From Pseudobdellovibrionaceae bacterium (GTDB taxonomy: Bacteria > Bdellovibrionota > Bdellovibrionia > Bdellovibrionales > UBA1609), in the NCBI GenBank assembly GCA_023954155.1, contig JAMLIO010000006.1, positions 62,001 through 126,000 on the forward strand: a stretch of 64,000 nucleotides of DNA, written 5' to 3'. Shown piece after piece: positions 4,822 through 62,537 of this stretch. Under the pieces are notes generated by a model, which saw only the letters and a program-made list of their open reading frames with translations, made no database searches and was not told the origin of the DNA. Positions within the stretch are counted from its first letter, which is position 1, and every line of letters starts with the position of its first letter. Both the position numbers and the translations under genes were made by a program.

Positions 4822-4970
4822 CGAACGCCTCCTTGCTGATTCAAAGAACGCCATTAGGAACTCTTCAATTTAATGCTAGGGGGTTGGTGCGGAAAGTGCA
4901 ACTTAAATCTAAATTTACAATTTGATTACACATCTCACCTTACAGCTAACTCTCTGAATAGGCAGCTGCC

Positions 4971-5115
4971 ATTTGGAAGGTCTTTAGAAGAGATATCTCT
5001 CTAACAATAGGCACGCCCATCCATGGGCTCTTCCAGTATTTGCCCTGCGGGCAAAACGCGTCACGCTTACTGGAGGCCTATTCTTAGAGAGATCTCTTCT
5101 AAAGACCTTCCAAAT
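4971..5115 (+). repeat. Structured palindrome E1 (nested-hairpin core in long arms)
   Basis: The left arm 4971-5010 (40 nt) pairs with the right arm 5078-5115 (38 nt) with one mismatch and a 2-nt bulge. The 67-nt core 5011-5077 folds into hairpin H1 (5015-5028, GCCCA/TGGGC), an enclosing stem CCAGTA/TACTGG (5033-5038 with 5068-5073), H2 (5039-5055, TTTGCCC/GGGCAAA) and H3 (5058-5066, GCG-TCA-CGC). The core is identical to that of E2 on the other strand and homologous to E3. It has no T tract and no coding potential I trust. Confidence 0.9.
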
Positions 5116-5474
5116 AGCAACGCCAGTGTGATTGTGTTTAAAGCGGGATAATGAATCTTTATTTAAAAAATCCTGAGTAGGAAATTTTATTCCTTCTGAC
5201 TGGATGAAGATTGGGGGAAGGTCAATAAAGGGTGTCAATATTTTTTGCTTAGAAAGTCAGCAATATAGATTGTAAAGGAAAATTAAATGAAAACAACAAA
5301 AGACAGTGGGCCCTCTGAATTTGAAATGAAAAATAGGAAGTCTGTAAGTTTTCGCAAGCCTTATATTGAACGTGCTTAGTTTTTTAATTTTGTTGATGAT
5401 ATAAATAACCAAATAGGACAACGGCGCAGAGACAGCTATATCCCGACTTAAACACAATCACACAGGCAGTTGTT
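5116..5474. other. Spacer between inverted palindromes E1 and E2
   Basis: About 360 nt, AT-rich. Both edges carry an inverted copy of GTGTGATTGTGTTTAA followed by a CGGGATA-like box (near 5126-5152 and 5431-5464), so the E1/E2 homology extends inward past the arms. The only coding candidate is the 30-codon ORF at 5287-5379. The whole unit resembles a small non-autonomous element with long terminal inverted repeats. Confidence 0.55.
5287..5379 (+). CDS. Possible 30-aa small protein between E1 and E2
   Basis: ATG at 5287 with a good Shine-Dalgarno (AAAGGA at 5274-5279, 7-nt spacing) opens a 30-codon frame starting MKTTKDSGPSEFEMKNRK and ending ...PYIERA. It is basic, with no membrane segment or known motif. 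It lies wholly inside the E1-E2 spacer. It may be cargo of the element, a remnant, or chance; the ribosome-binding site is the main support. Confidence 0.3.
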   Translation: MKTTKDSGPSEFEMKNRKSVSFRKPYIERA

Positions 5475-5621
5475 GTTTGGAAGGTCTTTAGAAGAGATAT
5501 CTCCCTAACAAGAGGCCTCCAGTAAGCGTGACGCGTTTTGCCCGCAGGGCAAATACTGGAAGAGCCCATGGATGGGCGTGCCTCTTGTTAGGGAGATATC
5601 TCTTCTAAAGACCTTCCAAAC
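5475..5621 (-). repeat. Structured palindrome E2 (inverted copy of E1)
   Basis: The 40-nt arms 5475-5514 and 5582-5621 are perfectly complementary. The 67-nt core 5515-5581 is the exact reverse complement of the E1 core. The arms are related to those of E1 but differ at paired positions (for example CTCTCTAACAATAG in E1 versus CTCCCTAACAAGAG in E2), and each change is matched in the opposite arm, so pairing is kept. It lies about 160 nt downstream of the recA stop. Confidence 0.9.
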
Positions 5622-5646
5622 AGCAACACCGCCCCACATCTTCGTC

Positions 5647-14650: not shown

Positions 14651-14816
14651 CCGTTGTCTGTTTATAAGGTCTTTTAATTAAGGTCTATCTTTCGAAGGAG
14701 GCACGCCCCTCCTGGGCTCTGCCAGCATTTGCCCTTTGGGCAAAACACGTCACGTTTGCTGGAGGCCTCCTTCGAAAGATAGACCTTAATTAAAAGACCT
14801 TATAAACAGACAACGG
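14651..14816 (+). repeat. Structured palindrome E3, same core family as E1/E2
   Basis: The 50-nt arms 14651-14700 and 14767-14816 are perfectly complementary. The 66-nt core 14701-14766 aligns with the E1 core over its whole length. Relative to E1, the enclosing stem changes CCAGTA/TACTGG to CCAGCA/TGCTGG and H3 changes GCG-TCA-CGC to ACG-TCA-CGT, both with pairing kept; the H2 loop changes TGC to TTT. The arm sequence is mostly different from E1/E2, though both contain AAGGTCTTT. GGATGG occurs just outside both ends (14640-14645 and 14814-14819). Confidence 0.92.
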
Positions 14817-42783: not shown

Positions 42784-43998
42784 GTGATGGGGAAGATTAT
42801 GTTTTGTACCTTTTTAAAATTCAAAATGAGAGCCTGTCTCTTTATTTTCATGGCATTCGGTCCTCTTTTTATCACTCACCCTCTTTATGCCGCTACGGTT
42901 TATGTTTTAGATTTTGATGGGACTATAGTGAATGATGCTGGGCCAAGAGCGACATGGAAAACGCCTTGGGTTCTTGTTAGAGTCAATCAACTTCACTCTG
43001 TGGCCCAAACTGCTTTTTTAGAAAACCAACCCGAGCGTATTGAACTTTCATACGCTGAGTATCGCGGGCTTCTTTCTCGTCTTGCGAAAGGTGACGGGCT
43101 TCTTGGTGATTTGACGGATGTTAAACTTACGCCCGATCCTTTTTTAAGACGTCCTTTAACCATTCGTCCTGGATTTTATAAAGTGAATCCTGACATCACA
43201 TTTGAATATTACAAAACCAATTCTAACCCCAAAGGTCCAAGTCACCTTCTGTCCAGTTACGAACAAGCTCTGGTCCGAGCTGATAAGGGTTTAGGGCGCA
43301 GAGACGCATGGCAAGGACCCGCATTCACGTTGTTACAAAAGGCCTTGTCTGAAAGTTCGGACCAGTCGCGTGTGATCATCTCTACAGCGCGAGATCAGAA
43401 GCTCACTGAGTTTTTGCATCTGTTTTCACAAATGGAAAAGGATGGGCATCTGAAGTTTGCCGAACCTCTAAGTCCTGAGAGCAACAAAGTGATCGTGCGT
43501 AACTTAGAGTCCTTAACCGAAGGTCTTGAGCTGGGACGCAGTCTATCTGAAAGAAAAGTGCAATCTGTGGTGGAGACAGCCCAGCAGCTTTTAATTTCTC
43601 CGCTGAAGCCCCATGTGGAAGGCACCACTCAAAACCTATCCTATGCTCTAGAGGCCAAACACACCTTGATTGTGGCAGAAGACCATCCTGGTTATGTTGC
43701 TAAAATTGGACAAAAACTCGCAGAACTTTCTAGAGAATATAGATTCAAAGACGCCATAAGATTTGTACTTTTAAATGCAGGCGTTGAGTCAGATTTAGTC
43801 GGCGCAAGATGGGCCAATAGATGGACCGTGTTTGAAGGTGGGTTTGCCAGAGAGGCCTCACCAGAAGAGATTCGAGCTTGGACTAAAATTTCAAAAGATC
43901 AAACAGTCTCTACACAAGATCTGTTATCTCATGTGCGATCCCAACGTTCACAGAGACTGTGTACAAAATTTTTAAGTAGTAACAAGGGTGGTAACTAA
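42784..43998 (+). CDS. Exported HAD-superfamily protein (phosphatase-like)
   Basis: 404 aa, GTG start. An extended signal peptide (KMRACLFIFMAFGPLFITHPLYAATV) is followed by VLDFDGTIVNDAG, the HAD motif I with Asp43/Asp45. Later RVIISTARDQKL could be motif II (Ser/Thr), and HTLIVAEDHPGYVAKI motif III/IV. It is longer than most HAD phosphatases. Its last residues LCTKFLSSNKGGN resemble the mature start of the next protein. The start of the next gene overlaps its stop by 1 nt. Confidence 0.7.
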   Translation: MMGKIMFCTFLKFKMRACLFIFMAFGPLFITHPLYAATVYVLDFDGTIVNDAGPRATWKTPWVLVRVNQLHSVAQTAFLENQPERIELSYAEYRGLLSRLAKGDGLLGDLTDVKLTPDPFLRRPLTIRPGFYKVNPDITFEYYKTNSNPKGPSHLLSSYEQALVRADKGLGRRDAWQGPAFTLLQKALSESSDQSRVIISTARDQKLTEFLHLFSQMEKDGHLKFAEPLSPESNKVIVRNLESLTEGLELGRSLSERKVQSVVETAQQLLISPLKPHVEGTTQNLSYALEAKHTLIVAEDHPGYVAKIGQKLAELSREYRFKDAIRFVLLNAGVESDLVGARWANRWTVFEGGFAREASPEEIRAWTKISKDQTVSTQDLLSHVRSQRSQRLCTKFLSSNKGGN

Positions 43999-46658
43999 TG
44001 ACGGCATTACAAACTATTCTTACGGCTATCGTTATTCTTTTTATGGCTCAAAACGCCTCGGCAAATATGTGCGTCAAGTATTTAAGTAGCAACTCCCCTA
44101 AGGTTATCCCCTCCCCAGTAGTTACAGAATTTAAATCCTTTAATTTCACGGCGTTTTGGAATGAGCCTGCCAAATCTTTTGATTTCAATAAACACAAAAA
44201 TTTTAATGGTGTTTTAGTCCATGAAGTTTCAAGGTTCTTTTCAAAAAACCATCAACTTCCTCCTGAAAATATTCTAATCAGAAGCATTATTGGGTTTTTA
44301 GATTCCTCTGGAACTGCGTCACGCTTTACTAAATCCATGGAGCAAACAGGTAAACTTGAAGAGTACTTCAGTCATGAAAAGTCTCCTAGTTCTGTTGCTA
44401 ATATTTTAAAGGCCTCCGTCGAATCCAATCCCAGCTTAGTGGCTGAATTAGTCAAAAAGATTCAGTCATTTTCTGCGGATCATCTTGTGCAAAGATTAAG
44501 ATTTCCCACATACGAAGCCATCGCACAAAAAATGGAAGTCACCGAAGAAGTTTTAAGGATTATTATACCTGATTCAAATAAGTTCTTTAAAGATGTCGCA
44601 AGTTCCAATCCTGAAGCCTTACAAAAGGCACAAAATAAATTGATTGCCGCTTACCTCAGAGTCATTAGAAATACCGACGAAGCCGAACATACAAAAACCC
44701 GTCCTCAATCACCTAGTCCAGAAAAATTGTTGCAAGCTCTTGTGGCCATTTCTAAAGACAAGGCTCTGGCTATGGATATTGAAAGCAAAGCTTTTACTGT
44801 AGAAACCTTACGCGAGCTTATTGGTGAAGCTGAAACTGCTGGTCCATTTAGTCTTTTTAAAGGCGGCATTAAAGGTGTAGAAGAGAAAGCGCGCGAACGT
44901 AACCCCAATGCCTTTAAAAGCTTTATCCCTGAAGAGATTTATAACGAAAGAAAACTGGCCGAAATCATGACCGCCTTAGAAGCTCGTGATGGGTTTCTAG
45001 TGACTTCCGTCAATGCGGGGATACCTGTTGTGGAAAGCCAACTGGCCACCATGCTCAAATATGCCAAAGATAAAAATTATGACATTCTTGTGATTCCCAC
45101 CAGTCAAATTTTAGAAGGCTTAGATAAGAGATTGATTTCTAATCCTAGAATTCATATTCTTACGCACACCATCTCCAATGCTCATCTTAAACTTTGGAAC
45201 ATTCCTATTTTAACGAAAAACCAAAATCCGCTGGCCTCTTTGGATGCTCCAGGACAGGTCAACCCAGGACAGCTGACGATTGTGGGGCACTCGCAACTCA
45301 CTTTAAAAGTAAAACCCACAGGCAGTAACCATATCAGACCTACAGAAATTTGGTCCACAGGCTCTTTAAGTCAAAACAGTTATCCCTTTCAACATGCCAT
45401 ACAAGGTAGAACCAGTGAACTTGCTAAAAACAATCACAAGAATGGTTTTTTAGTTCTTGAAAAGTCCGATTCCAAAGCTGGTCCTCTGGGAGATGGAGCG
45501 CAAAATATATGGCACGTCCGCCCTGTTTACTTCAAAGGTCACAGAGGTATTGAAGGCTTTACTGACATGAACATCAGTTACTTTGTTCGAGACACAGCCA
45601 AAGAAAAGCTACAACAAGAAGGCAAAGTGGACATCAAGTTGATTGTTGAAAAGGTTCAACATGGGGCTGAAGTGATTGTACTTGGTGATCTTCATGATCG
45701 GGTCACTGACCAAGCTTATATGGCTTCGATCACCAACTTTATTCGTAACAATCCTTCTATTAAAAAGATTGTTTTACATGATCCCATTGATGGTAATTCA
45801 CACAACCGACATGAAGCCGAGCAAACATCTCTGCTCATTCGAAAGTTTACCAATGGAGACTTGGACTTTCATAAAGAAATGATGGGAATCGTTCAAGTCG
45901 TGAATGCTTTAACTTCCATCAGACCTGACATACAGATTGTACTTACAGATTCTAACCACAGCTATTGGGCCAAAACCTTGATCGACAAACAACCCCAAGC
46001 TCAATCTGTGATCAATGGACTCTTCTTAGCCGAGTTGACTTATGCTTCGAGAATGCTTGGAATCAGTGATCCTTTAACTTACGTATTTCAAGCCCGAAAC
46101 GATGTACTTAAAAATCTTCCTCCAGAAAAACGCATCGAAGTTGAAGCTCATGCCATCCCTGTCTTACACCCAGGACGTGTGATTGTGCTCCCCTTTGGTG
46201 AGTCCTTTGTGTATGGGCCCAAAGAAAACCCTACCCATCTTAACTTTCACGGACACCAAGGTGCTAACGGCGCGAAAGGGTCTCCAAGAGCACACGCTAC
46301 AGGGTCACAAAATGCTGTCACCGCAGACTCGCACCAATCTTTTATTCTTGGTGACTGGATGAGTGTCGGGACCACCACCTCACAACGTGTGGGCTACAAC
46401 AACGGCGGGTATTCGGCATGGAGTAACTCTTTTGTGCTGTTATATCCTGACGGCTCAAAACAACTTGTGATCTATTCGTCATTGACCCAAACATTCATGC
46501 AACGAAAAGAATTCGGAACCTTAAAACCCGAAGACTTCTACGGCCGAGAACCTTTAGAAGTTAAAGCCAACGACAATGACGTCGTCTCTGGTATCATCGT
46601 AGACCAATTCTCACACTTCCTAGAAGCCACAGGACAAATCAAAAAACCAACCGACTAA
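43998..46658 (+). CDS. Large exported metallophosphoesterase resembling phage T5 A1-type proteins
   Basis: 886 aa with a signal peptide (MTALQTILTAIVILFMAQNASANM). Residues about 25-540 are a unique region. The C-terminal domain has, in order, VIVLGDLHDRV (about 560), LHDPIDGNSHNRHE (about 593), VLTDSNHSYWAKTLI (about 650), FHGHQGANGAKGSPRAH (about 750) and TADSHQSFILGDWMSVGTT (about 776), then GGYSAWSNSFVLLYPDG. That order matches calcineurin-like phosphoesterases of T5-like phages (GDxHD, GNHD/SNHD, HGHxGANG-x-RGS). T5 A1-type proteins are linked to host DNA breakdown; export here would suit prey DNA degradation, which is inference. Confidence 0.72.
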   Translation: MTALQTILTAIVILFMAQNASANMCVKYLSSNSPKVIPSPVVTEFKSFNFTAFWNEPAKSFDFNKHKNFNGVLVHEVSRFFSKNHQLPPENILIRSIIGFLDSSGTASRFTKSMEQTGKLEEYFSHEKSPSSVANILKASVESNPSLVAELVKKIQSFSADHLVQRLRFPTYEAIAQKMEVTEEVLRIIIPDSNKFFKDVASSNPEALQKAQNKLIAAYLRVIRNTDEAEHTKTRPQSPSPEKLLQALVAISKDKALAMDIESKAFTVETLRELIGEAETAGPFSLFKGGIKGVEEKARERNPNAFKSFIPEEIYNERKLAEIMTALEARDGFLVTSVNAGIPVVESQLATMLKYAKDKNYDILVIPTSQILEGLDKRLISNPRIHILTHTISNAHLKLWNIPILTKNQNPLASLDAPGQVNPGQLTIVGHSQLTLKVKPTGSNHIRPTEIWSTGSLSQNSYPFQHAIQGRTSELAKNNHKNGFLVLEKSDSKAGPLGDGAQNIWHVRPVYFKGHRGIEGFTDMNISYFVRDTAKEKLQQEGKVDIKLIVEKVQHGAEVIVLGDLHDRVTDQAYMASITNFIRNNPSIKKIVLHDPIDGNSHNRHEAEQTSLLIRKFTNGDLDFHKEMMGIVQVVNALTSIRPDIQIVLTDSNHSYWAKTLIDKQPQAQSVINGLFLAELTYASRMLGISDPLTYVFQARNDVLKNLPPEKRIEVEAHAIPVLHPGRVIVLPFGESFVYGPKENPTHLNFHGHQGANGAKGSPRAHATGSQNAVTADSHQSFILGDWMSVGTTTSQRVGYNNGGYSAWSNSFVLLYPDGSKQLVIYSSLTQTFMQRKEFGTLKPEDFYGREPLEVKANDNDVVSGIIVDQFSHFLEATGQIKKPTD

Positions 46659-46668
46659 AAACCACGGC

Positions 46669-46921
46669 CCAAAGAACTATATTCTAGATTAAGTCTTGGT
46701 TATTCCATATATCCTTAGAAGATCACCTCACGTCGGGCGATGCGTATCCGACTTGCAGCATAGGTTTTGGATTAAGATTAAGGGGAGACCCCAAGGGGGT
46801 TCTCTTAATCTTAATCCAAAATCTATGATGAAAGCCGAAGACGCTTCGCACCCGCTCGTGTTGGGGGGCTTCTAAGGATATATGGAATAACCAAGACTTA
46901 ATCTAGAATATAGTTCTTTGG
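46669..46921. repeat. Giant palindrome E4, 53-bp perfect arms, arm copied from a gene end
   Basis: Arms 46669-46721 and 46869-46921 are perfectly complementary over 53 nt. Inside, a 24-bp stem (46759-46782 with 46804-46827, one G-T pair) carries an ACCCC/GGGGT tip hairpin; a GTCGG/CCGAC hairpin lies to its left and a GAAG/CTTC hairpin to its right. The right arm contains the last seven codons and stop of the M23 gene; the left arm is an inverted duplicate of that. The core differs from E1-E3. No T tract, so not a simple terminator. Confidence 0.9.
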
Positions 46922-47923
46922 ATCTACTGGGATTCCGTTGACGCGGACTTCGTAGTGAACGTGAGGGCCAGTGGAACGGCCTGTACTTCCTACGGCTGAA
47001 ATCTTCTCGCGACGCTTGACCTGTTGGCCTAATTTTACAAATACTTTTGAGTTATGAGCAAAACGGGTGACCACACCAAATCCGTGGTCAATAGACACAA
47101 TCTTTCCGTAACCAGATTCATATCCCACATAAGACACTACCCCTGCCGCAGGCGCTACCACTGTGGTTCCCACTGAAGCCGCCACGTCTAAGCCTTTATG
47201 TAAGATGACTCGGCCTGTGAACGGATCATTACGATAACCGAATTGAGACGAGATCCAACCCACTGCGGGCATAATGCTAGGAGTGTAATCCAAAAGATCT
47301 CTTCTTTCAGAAAGATCATCCCAAAGTTTGTTAAGCTCTAACTCCATGTTTTGGGCTGTTTTTGAAGAATCCCAAATGCGCACTTCTAAATCTGAGAAAA
47401 ACTGAGTGGAAGTGGATTGAATGGCATTCGGTGTTCTTGCAAGGATAGGCCATTTAAAAAACGAAAGCCCTGTTACGCCACTACTTGAAGAGGCCAAAGA
47501 GGCTGATTTTCTTTCTGCGGCCATCGCTGCTTCTTGTTCGTTAGGATAAATGGTGTCACCAGGGCGAGGTTCTGAGTTGAACACCAAGTCCATCTCTCGG
47601 TCTTCATCATTCACATCTGTGATGGCTTTAAGTTTTGTAGACAGAGACTTTACTCTTTCTACTTGTAACTCTAGGGATTCTAACTTGGTGATCAGACGGT
47701 CGTATTGAACTTCCATCTGTTCGTTTTTTAATCTTAAAATTTTATTCTCGTTATTTTGTGCAATCAGACGGAAGTAATCCCCCACCATAGACAGCATGAT
47801 CAAAACAAACAGACCAAAAATAAATAAAGAAAAATGAATCCAACTTCTGGAGATCGTAAATTTTCTAACAGGGGCACGATGGTTTCCAGTAATGATAATG
47901 TTATATTTCTTGCTTGATTTCAT
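46898..47923 (-). CDS. M23-family metallopeptidase, membrane-anchored, coiled coil
   Basis: 341 aa. Uncleaved N-terminal membrane helix (HFSLFIFGLFVLIMLSMVGDYF), then a coiled coil (about 50-95), a linker, and an M23 (lysostaphin-type) domain: FGYRNDPFTGRVILHKGLDVAA, SIDHGFGVVTRFAHNS and GRSTGPHVHYEVRVNG supply the zinc and catalytic residues. The first zinc His is in HKGLD and the HxH in HVHYE, so it is likely catalytic, unlike EnvC/NlpD types. Its 3' end lies inside the right arm of E4. Probably a crosslink-cleaving endopeptidase. Confidence 0.9.
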   Translation of the reverse strand: MKSSKKYNIIITGNHRAPVRKFTISRSWIHFSLFIFGLFVLIMLSMVGDYFRLIAQNNENKILRLKNEQMEVQYDRLITKLESLELQVERVKSLSTKLKAITDVNDEDREMDLVFNSEPRPGDTIYPNEQEAAMAAERKSASLASSSSGVTGLSFFKWPILARTPNAIQSTSTQFFSDLEVRIWDSSKTAQNMELELNKLWDDLSERRDLLDYTPSIMPAVGWISSQFGYRNDPFTGRVILHKGLDVAASVGTTVVAPAAGVVSYVGYESGYGKIVSIDHGFGVVTRFAHNSKVFVKLGQQVKRREKISAVGSTGRSTGPHVHYEVRVNGIPVDPKNYILD

Positions 47924-60650: not shown

Positions 60651-62537
60651 TTGAGTAAGAGCAATTACGAAGTTTTTGGTAAACACGTCCTTCTGGAGCG
60701 CATTGCTATGGGAGGAATGGCAGAGATTTTCCTTGCCCGCAGTTCAGGTGCTGGTGGTATTGGAAAGTTCAGTGCCATTAAACGTATTTTGCCACAATAC
60801 TCTGGTAACAGCGAGTTCATTAACATGTTTAAGGACGAAGCTAAAATCAACGTGAACCTGTCTCATAGTAATATCGTTCCTGTTTATGAGTTTGGTGTTG
60901 AAAACGGTCAGTTTTACATCGTGATGGAATACGTCAACGGTAAAAACTTACGCCAAGTGATCAACCGTATGCTTAAGGACTCTGATGTTTACTTCTCTAT
61001 TGATCAGATCGTATATATCATTCGCGAAGTGGCTGCTGGTCTTGACCATGCACACAGATGTTTGGATGGAACCACTGGTAAACCCCTAAATATTATTCAT
61101 AGAGACATGAGTCCACAAAACATCATGGTCAGCTATGAAGGTGAAATCAAAGTCGTCGACTTTGGTATTGCTAAGGCGGAAAGCCAAGTCGAAAGCACTA
61201 AAGCAGGAACTCTTAAAGGTAAATTTGCCTATATGTCTCCAGAGCAAGCTGGTGGCGAAGAGATTGATTTAAAAACTGATATTTATTCTTTAGGTATTGT
61301 GCTTTGGGAGCTTTTAGCCAAAGACCGCTTATTTATGGCCTCTAACGAGATCAACACCCTTAAGAAGATTCGCGAAGGGAAAATCCCTTCTATCAGAAGT
61401 TTAAACTCTGATGTCAATGAAGCGCTGGAAAAGATCGTGATGAAGTCTTTGGCTAAAAACAAAGATGAGCGTTACCAAACTTGTGCCGATTTTCAAAGAG
61501 ACTTGAACAGATTTTTAAACACTCACTACCCTGATTTTTCTGCTCATGACTTTTCAATTTTTATTAAGTCTTTGTATGCAGATGAAATTCTACAAAATAG
61601 AAAAAAGCTAATTGAGTATTCTAATCTTAAAATTGATACCAGTGCTATGGCGTCTAATAATGCCGACGCTACTGTGGTGGCTTCAGTCACACAGCCTGAT
61701 ATTCCTTCTCCAAACAAGTCCAATCATTTGCGACTGGATTTCGAGATGGATCAACCTCAGCACGCTACTAACATTGATTTTAAAAGTATCACTATCAATA
61801 AGACACAAAAGTCTGACCCTAGGGCTCAACAATCAGCCTCAGGCGTGAGATCACAAACACAAAGCAGTTACTCCAGATATACAGGCAGTTACAATAAGTA
61901 CAGTTCTGATGTGGGCTCTGCCGCCAACTGGAGCAAATATGTTCTTTTTGTAGTAGTGGCGTGTGGATTGGCATTGATTGCTTCACAGATCTTTCCCAAC
62001 CTTGGATCGTCTAATAAAGTAAAAGAGATTTCGACCAAGGACCTTGCTTCCTTAGGAGACAAAGACTCTAACGTGCTCTTTAAAGGAGCGGAAAAGAAAT
62101 TGATCGTAAGAAGTAATCCTCCTGGCGCGCAAATTTTTGTCAATGGCAAAAACACAGGTCGTGTCACACCAGGAAGAATTGATGTTCCTGCTAATGGCGA
62201 ATACCAATTGGAAGTCAAAAAACAAGGGTTCATTGACTATGCTCGCCCTATGCCTAATGGATCTAAAGAGACTGAAGTGTTTGCCACTTTACAAAAGAAC
62301 CCCATCGGTTACTTAGATGTCAGTGTGGTCAATCCTAATAATGATCCCATCATGCTTTATATCAATAACGTCTCTATCCCCGATCAACTTCCGATCAGGA
62401 TGTATCGTGTGCCTTCTGGTAAAATTGTGGTTCGCGCTGTCAATCAACGCTTAGGACTGTTTGCCGAAGAGACTGTCGAGTTGAAAGTCGATCAACGTCT
62501 ACAAATTCGATTAAATCCACGCTCACAAATGCGTTAA
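60651..62537 (+). CDS. Ser/Thr protein kinase with transmembrane helix and PEGA domain
   Basis: 628 aa, TTG start with GAGG upstream. Kinase domain (about 7-290): GKHVLLERIAMGGMAEIFLA, IIHRDMSPQNIMV, KVVDFGIAKA and APEQ-equivalent SPEQ. An intrinsically disordered Ser/Thr/Asn-rich region follows (about 290-425), a TM helix near 430-448 (YVLFVVVACGLALIASQIF) and a periplasmic PEGA domain (LIVRSNPPGAQIFVNGKNTG). This architecture is common in delta-type bacteria and senses envelope cues. PP2C at 48.1 kb could reverse it. Confidence 0.93.
   Translation: MSKSNYEVFGKHVLLERIAMGGMAEIFLARSSGAGGIGKFSAIKRILPQYSGNSEFINMFKDEAKINVNLSHSNIVPVYEFGVENGQFYIVMEYVNGKNLRQVINRMLKDSDVYFSIDQIVYIIREVAAGLDHAHRCLDGTTGKPLNIIHRDMSPQNIMVSYEGEIKVVDFGIAKAESQVESTKAGTLKGKFAYMSPEQAGGEEIDLKTDIYSLGIVLWELLAKDRLFMASNEINTLKKIREGKIPSIRSLNSDVNEALEKIVMKSLAKNKDERYQTCADFQRDLNRFLNTHYPDFSAHDFSIFIKSLYADEILQNRKKLIEYSNLKIDTSAMASNNADATVVASVTQPDIPSPNKSNHLRLDFEMDQPQHATNIDFKSITINKTQKSDPRAQQSASGVRSQTQSSYSRYTGSYNKYSSDVGSAANWSKYVLFVVVACGLALIASQIFPNLGSSNKVKEISTKDLASLGDKDSNVLFKGAEKKLIVRSNPPGAQIFVNGKNTGRVTPGRIDVPANGEYQLEVKKQGFIDYARPMPNGSKETEVFATLQKNPIGYLDVSVVNPNNDPIMLYINNVSIPDQLPIRMYRVPSGKIVVRAVNQRLGLFAEETVELKVDQRLQIRLNPRSQMR

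Follow-up and report, generated by a model that had tools for sequence, protein, structure and literature searches.

A dispersed family of palindromic repeats in a Pseudobdellovibrionaceae genome carries a core that is common to its copies, and sequence comparisons support the view that the long inverted arms around each core are made from local DNA. At almost every site ~40-110 bases of neighboring DNA are repeated backwards, which would be an unusual mode of settling for a genome repeat. The case studied most closely, E4, lies in a window of 64,000 nt (the whole stretch analyzed, positions 62,001 to 126,000 of contig JAMLIO010000006.1), together with the elements E1, E2, and E3.

E4 carries an inverted copy of the end of a peptidase gene

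The E4 palindrome spans positions 46669-46921. Its left arm (46669-46721, plus strand) and its right arm (46869-46921, plus strand) are 100% complementary over 53 nt and are separated by 147 nt, a perfect inverted match that is beyond chance. Folded as a single strand, E4 reaches -102 kcal/mol, whereas shuffled versions reach -26.6 ± 3.7 kcal/mol (z -20). The arms enclose a core region of what we call family A (46722-46868, plus strand), with conserved landmarks at ~46735-46854 (GGGCGATGCGTATCCG ... CGAAGACGCTTCGCACCCG) and an inner imperfect hairpin (46737-46849), whose arms, 46737-46791 and 46795-46849, are 80% complementary; the stem is variable in sequence yet paired. E4 matches no Rfam family at gathering score. 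As an earlier note on this DNA had described, the right arm extends into a gene for an M23 peptidase (46898-47923, minus strand, 341 aa; Pfam PF01551 at residues 242-335) and holds its last seven codons and stop (24 nt, 46898-46921), and the left arm is an exact inverted copy (53/53 nt) located 10 nt past the stop, at 46658, of a convergent 886-aa gene (43998-46658, plus strand). This second gene has no Pfam and no NCBIfam match.

The same note had regarded the M23 C terminus (...PVDPKNYILD) as native and had proposed that the gene was the source and the left arm the copy, and comparison with relatives bears out both points. Of 46 relatives, 43 have a match to the M23 gene at E ≤ 1e-20, and 22 orthologues from the bacterial family of the host keep a PVDPxNYIL-type end, reading P(V/I/A)(D/N)PxNY(I/V)L or a near-variant. 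In none of the 22 is there an inverted copy of the last 24 nt of M23 within 600 nt downstream; the best inverted match is 12-15 of 24 bases, which is background, against 22 of 24 at the E4 locus. These relatives have the gene end without a backward copy beside it, and the left arm of E4 is the derived inverted copy.

Gene order also identifies the M23 side as the native side of E4. In four relatives that lack the intervening segment (L048, L049, L050, and L054), rpsI and M23 are convergent neighbors, with the rpsI stop 7-69 nt beyond M23, and in two more relatives rpsI lies ~300-344 nt beyond it. In the genome of the window (hereafter the host genome), two further genes and E4 stand between rpsI and M23, so that E4 forms one edge of a lineage-specific segment. 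The segment comprises adjacent genes of 404 aa and 886 aa (42784-46658) without an NCBIfam match. In two other genera, a different inverted repeat is located just 3' of M23 (L051 2493-2646 and L052 2511-2601), with arms of 25-32 nt beginning AAAGGTAC.

Cores are dispersed and arms are local

E4 has the core of one dispersed family, A, and E1-E3 are members of a second, B. The right-hand motif of the E4 core occurs in 22 exact copies in the host genome, and the landmarks of this core are conserved across ten aligned cores. Carriers of family A are the host genome, G007, G041, G022, and G005, all from the family of the host, and G127 from another family of the same order, which amounts to five genera of the host's family and one genus of the other. 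Family B has ~15 copies in the host genome and many in G011. Among the matches listed in a genome-wide pattern scan, those outside Bdellovibrionales look like chance matches in GC-rich genomes, and phage and plasmid collections gave no match.

An automatic scan yielded 80 copies of families A and B, two of which are cut by contig ends. Inverted arms frame the core in 69 of the remaining 78 copies, at a score threshold of 40 (mismatched left/right pairs, our control, have a mean of 17 and a 95th percentile of 28), and also in all six copies of G127, where the arms are 41-50 nt long. Arms that are contiguous and begin no more than 25 nt from the core are present in 36/38 family-A and 33/40 family-B copies, with median arm identities of 97 and 93%, respectively. 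Copies without scored arms include decayed ones, one with an arm split by an insert, and the apparent hybrid L006 (see below). Inverted copies around a constant sequence could also result from sequencing or assembly, for example from a hairpin adapter or from fold-back during amplification, and contigs do break inside some G041 copies. We give such an artifact almost no credence, however, as the cores are not the same in all copies or lineages and are found in six genera, and the arms stop after ~50 nt, where each gives way to unique DNA of its own.

The arms differ from site to site. The E4 arm sequence is found nowhere else in the host genome, where other copies match only approximately query positions 63-249, that is, the core and its edges; the same arm away from M23, which the earlier note had named as the finding that would assign the arm to the element, was thus looked for and not found. 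Even where two cores are 98-100% identical, their arms resemble each other little more than shuffled sequences do. One arm includes the end of a recognizable gene in eight copies, a different gene in each: M23, an OppC-type permease, an MsbA-like transporter, RimO, a PaaE-like reductase, a siderophore-interacting protein, a YdfG-like dehydrogenase, and a SerA-like dehydrogenase. The note had suggested checking whether the arms of other E4-core copies also match neighboring genes, and besides E4 seven further arms contain or touch gene ends. The family models of the arm-overlapping genes extend to or near their last residues, and the direction in which copying went is shown at about eight genes; RimO and YdfG, with overlaps of only 13-14 nt, and SerA, with a short extension past the model, are the weaker cases. 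The native side lies left or right of the core, depending on the copy.

These findings bear on the idea that the arms are a fast-evolving part of the element and that gene matches are overlaps created on insertion. In some family-A copies the inner 25-40 nt of the arm are common, so that some of the arm may move together with the core, and a subgroup of family B has whole arms in common. Unrelated arms on identical cores and conserved gene ends inside arms nevertheless make arms belonging to the element a very improbable general explanation, and one already contradicted for E4. Of the earlier suggestion that arms arise from local flanking DNA by fold-back synthesis or template switching, the local origin is thus upheld, and the copying step is a reasonable inference.

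Within the core, 23 of 57 pairs of the inner stem show two-sided changes across ten copies; either selection or template switching could have kept the pairing through these changes. We also noted several unusual arrangements of copies. In G041, one family-A element is apparently nested at the center of another (L035 1490-1661 and L028 3-183), with contigs breaking inside. An array of about five family-B-like cores, spaced ~120 bp apart, is present in G011 (L154 497-1022). Nearby family-A pairs in opposite orientation occur in G007 (L108, L120, and L123) and in the host genome (L309 and L310), in minus-then-plus order in 5/5 cases; the four pairs with ORFs listed (L309, L310, L120, and L123) have no gene in common between the paired elements.

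Arm lengths tend to cluster by genome

Arm lengths range overall from about 40 to 110 nt and cluster by genome, at about 42, 45-54, or 65 nt. Arms end 52-55 nt from the landmark in 7/8 G007 copies and 72-75 nt from it in 4/4 full G041 copies. In the host genome, family-B arm ends are mostly found 49-62 nt from the landmark, and family-A arms vary more (37-114 nt). The elements are located mostly at gene 3' ends, in 14 convergent, 21 tandem, and 1 divergent settings, and in several convergent pairs the palindrome occupies the whole space between both stops. Read inward, the arms are T-rich (0.39-0.40, compared with 0.29 downstream of ordinary genes). A test for stable hairpins that might halt copying at the outer ends of the arms gave a weak signal, with P 0.03 at one offset and none at others. 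By eye, the outer arm end in G127 abuts a terminator-like hairpin or T-run in 4/6 copies (L315, L316, L319, and L320).

Arm lengths are pertinent to a second explanation, in which the core inserts without arms, and quasipalindrome template switching later lengthens and evens the arms until coding sequence halts their growth. In E. coli, imperfect inverted repeats are known to undergo template switching (PMC7202029), and the inner stems vary between our copies and remain paired. Outer arm ends of family A in the host genome lie closer to stop codons than under shuffled pairing (P 0.003), which is not so for family B; the test was read per family, and a pooled version, which filters on the gap itself, was set aside. 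This trend and the length range of family A are what arms that lengthen until halted by selection should show, and the palindromes that fill the space from stop to stop also speak for growth. Nearly all copies are armed, however, even those with identical and presumably recent cores, and within each of G007, G041, and G127 the lengths vary little, which in G007 also applies to copies far from genes. Because lengths cluster by genome, we prefer fold-back copying to slow growth of a palindrome, which we regard as unlikely though deserving serious attention; the stop-codon trend and the common inner arms leave room for some later growth of the arms.

A duplicated locus and the family-B elements

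A gene for a siderophore-interacting protein is duplicated at loci L158 and L006, with 85% identity over 970 nt, and a family-A core stands at the end of each copy. At L158, a backward copy of the gene end follows on the other side of the core, giving arms of 50 nt with 100% identity. L006 has the same gene side, but there the core is followed by the end of guaA, without a backward copy. Arm-like inner motifs on both sides of L006 make it a probable product of recombination between two elements. The guaA-side arm was found solely at L006, so that no reciprocal partner of the hybrid was seen. Recombinant or not, the gene side is the original one at this pair of loci.

The earlier note had also offered local copying as the reason why the arms of E1-E3 differ. 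This holds for E3 (14651-14816, plus strand), whose 52-nt perfect arms are locus-specific. It does not hold for E1 (4960-5119, plus strand) and E2 (5464-5630, minus strand), which belong to one subgroup, with cores in opposite orientation, and have whole arms and flanking sequence in common with each other and with further loci. As arms and flank are both common to several loci, the arms of this subgroup have spread as part of a larger duplicated segment. E1 and E2 bracket a segment (4960-5630), and a 3.8-kb region (L306 517-4440) lies between related family-B copies; by eye it contains an IS3-like transposase and Rhs-like fragments in translation. A moving gene was sought in the 3.8-kb segment, and none was obvious among its contents.

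A fold-back model for arm formation

We lean toward a model in which hairpin-primed fold-back copying of one flank is tied to arrival of the core. A dispersed, non-coding hairpin core of family A would become established, usually just downstream of a gene, and one flank of ~40-65 nt would be copied in reverse onto the other side, so that a long hairpin with local arms and a common core results; at E4 the flank copied would be the 3' end of the M23 gene. The core may become single-stranded at a replication fork or in a repair intermediate. The new strand would then pass through the core, fold back on the core hairpin, copy its own just-made flank for a limited distance, and rejoin the far side, where the copy would presumably be inserted rather than replace existing sequence. 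An enzyme would be expected to move the core. Length clustering, near-universal arms, and identical cores with different arms together favor copying on arrival; the inner 25-40 nt common to some family-A copies and the whole arms common to one family-B subgroup count against it. More tentatively, and with rather less than even confidence, we propose that each time such a mobile palindromic core is established it inversely duplicates a defined length of target DNA, a mode of insertion that we did not meet in the literature searched.

No sbcD match above the curated cut-off was found in 47 genomes of the host's family, carriers and non-carriers alike. The family may thus lack a nuclease attacking long palindromes, which fits with tolerance of such structures and would make it a natural setting for studying fold-back copying. 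If arms form on core arrival, each copy would be the record of a fold-back event at a known place, and a rarely observed kind of copying would become countable in genomes. The repeat would then be able to build its own long hairpin out of host DNA.

Comparison with known repeats and copying processes

A limited search of the open-access literature gave no description of locus-derived arms. REPINs and BIMEs, which are associated with RAYT transposases, are likewise palindromic doublets scattered outside genes, in which the ends are conserved and compensating changes maintain a spacer hairpin, judging from excerpts of the reports (PMC3116915, PMC3733652), and a conserved inverted pair of end motifs forming a hairpin is present in family-A cores. 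According to the same excerpts they also form tandem clusters, as family B does in G011, but long, near-perfect arms of local DNA are seen only here when set against these partial descriptions. The GTAG/CGTC tag rule, as excerpted from PMC3733652, has no clear fit to the core motifs; by eye, CGTC is present in some cores and not clearly unpaired. Our elements could be REPIN-like, with a RAYT (Y1) transposase as their mover and the arms as a by-product of single-strand transposition, and one family-B copy in G011 is indeed located ~220 bp from a Y1 gene. A Y1 transposase (PF01797) is present in several other carriers, but the 99%-complete host genome has no match. No family-A core is found in the sequence taken around two Y1 genes of G007 (0/2), and 1 of 14 G011 neighborhoods fetched has a core nearby. 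We therefore consider movement by a RAYT quite unlikely.

MITEs are also short and non-coding, with inverted-repeat ends and many copies. Their terminal repeats, however, are common to the copies, which the arms described here are not, except in the E1/E2 subgroup. Snap-back palindromic duplications and the ODIRA model, in the portions of text considered (PMC4689423, PMC10766183), share with our model inverted flank copies that are proposed to be made by strand or template switching at forks, but concern large inverted copy-number changes rather than a short repeat with arms of tens of bases. In quasipalindrome template switching (PMC7202029, PMC8604942), copying between inverted-repeat arms would similarly give local and near-perfect arms; it usually corrects an existing imperfect palindrome, whereas here 40-110 nt are found around a dispersed core, at genome-specific lengths. 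On the parts of these sources considered, the nearest described kind of element is the REPIN (PMC3116915) and the nearest described process is quasipalindrome template switching (PMC7202029).
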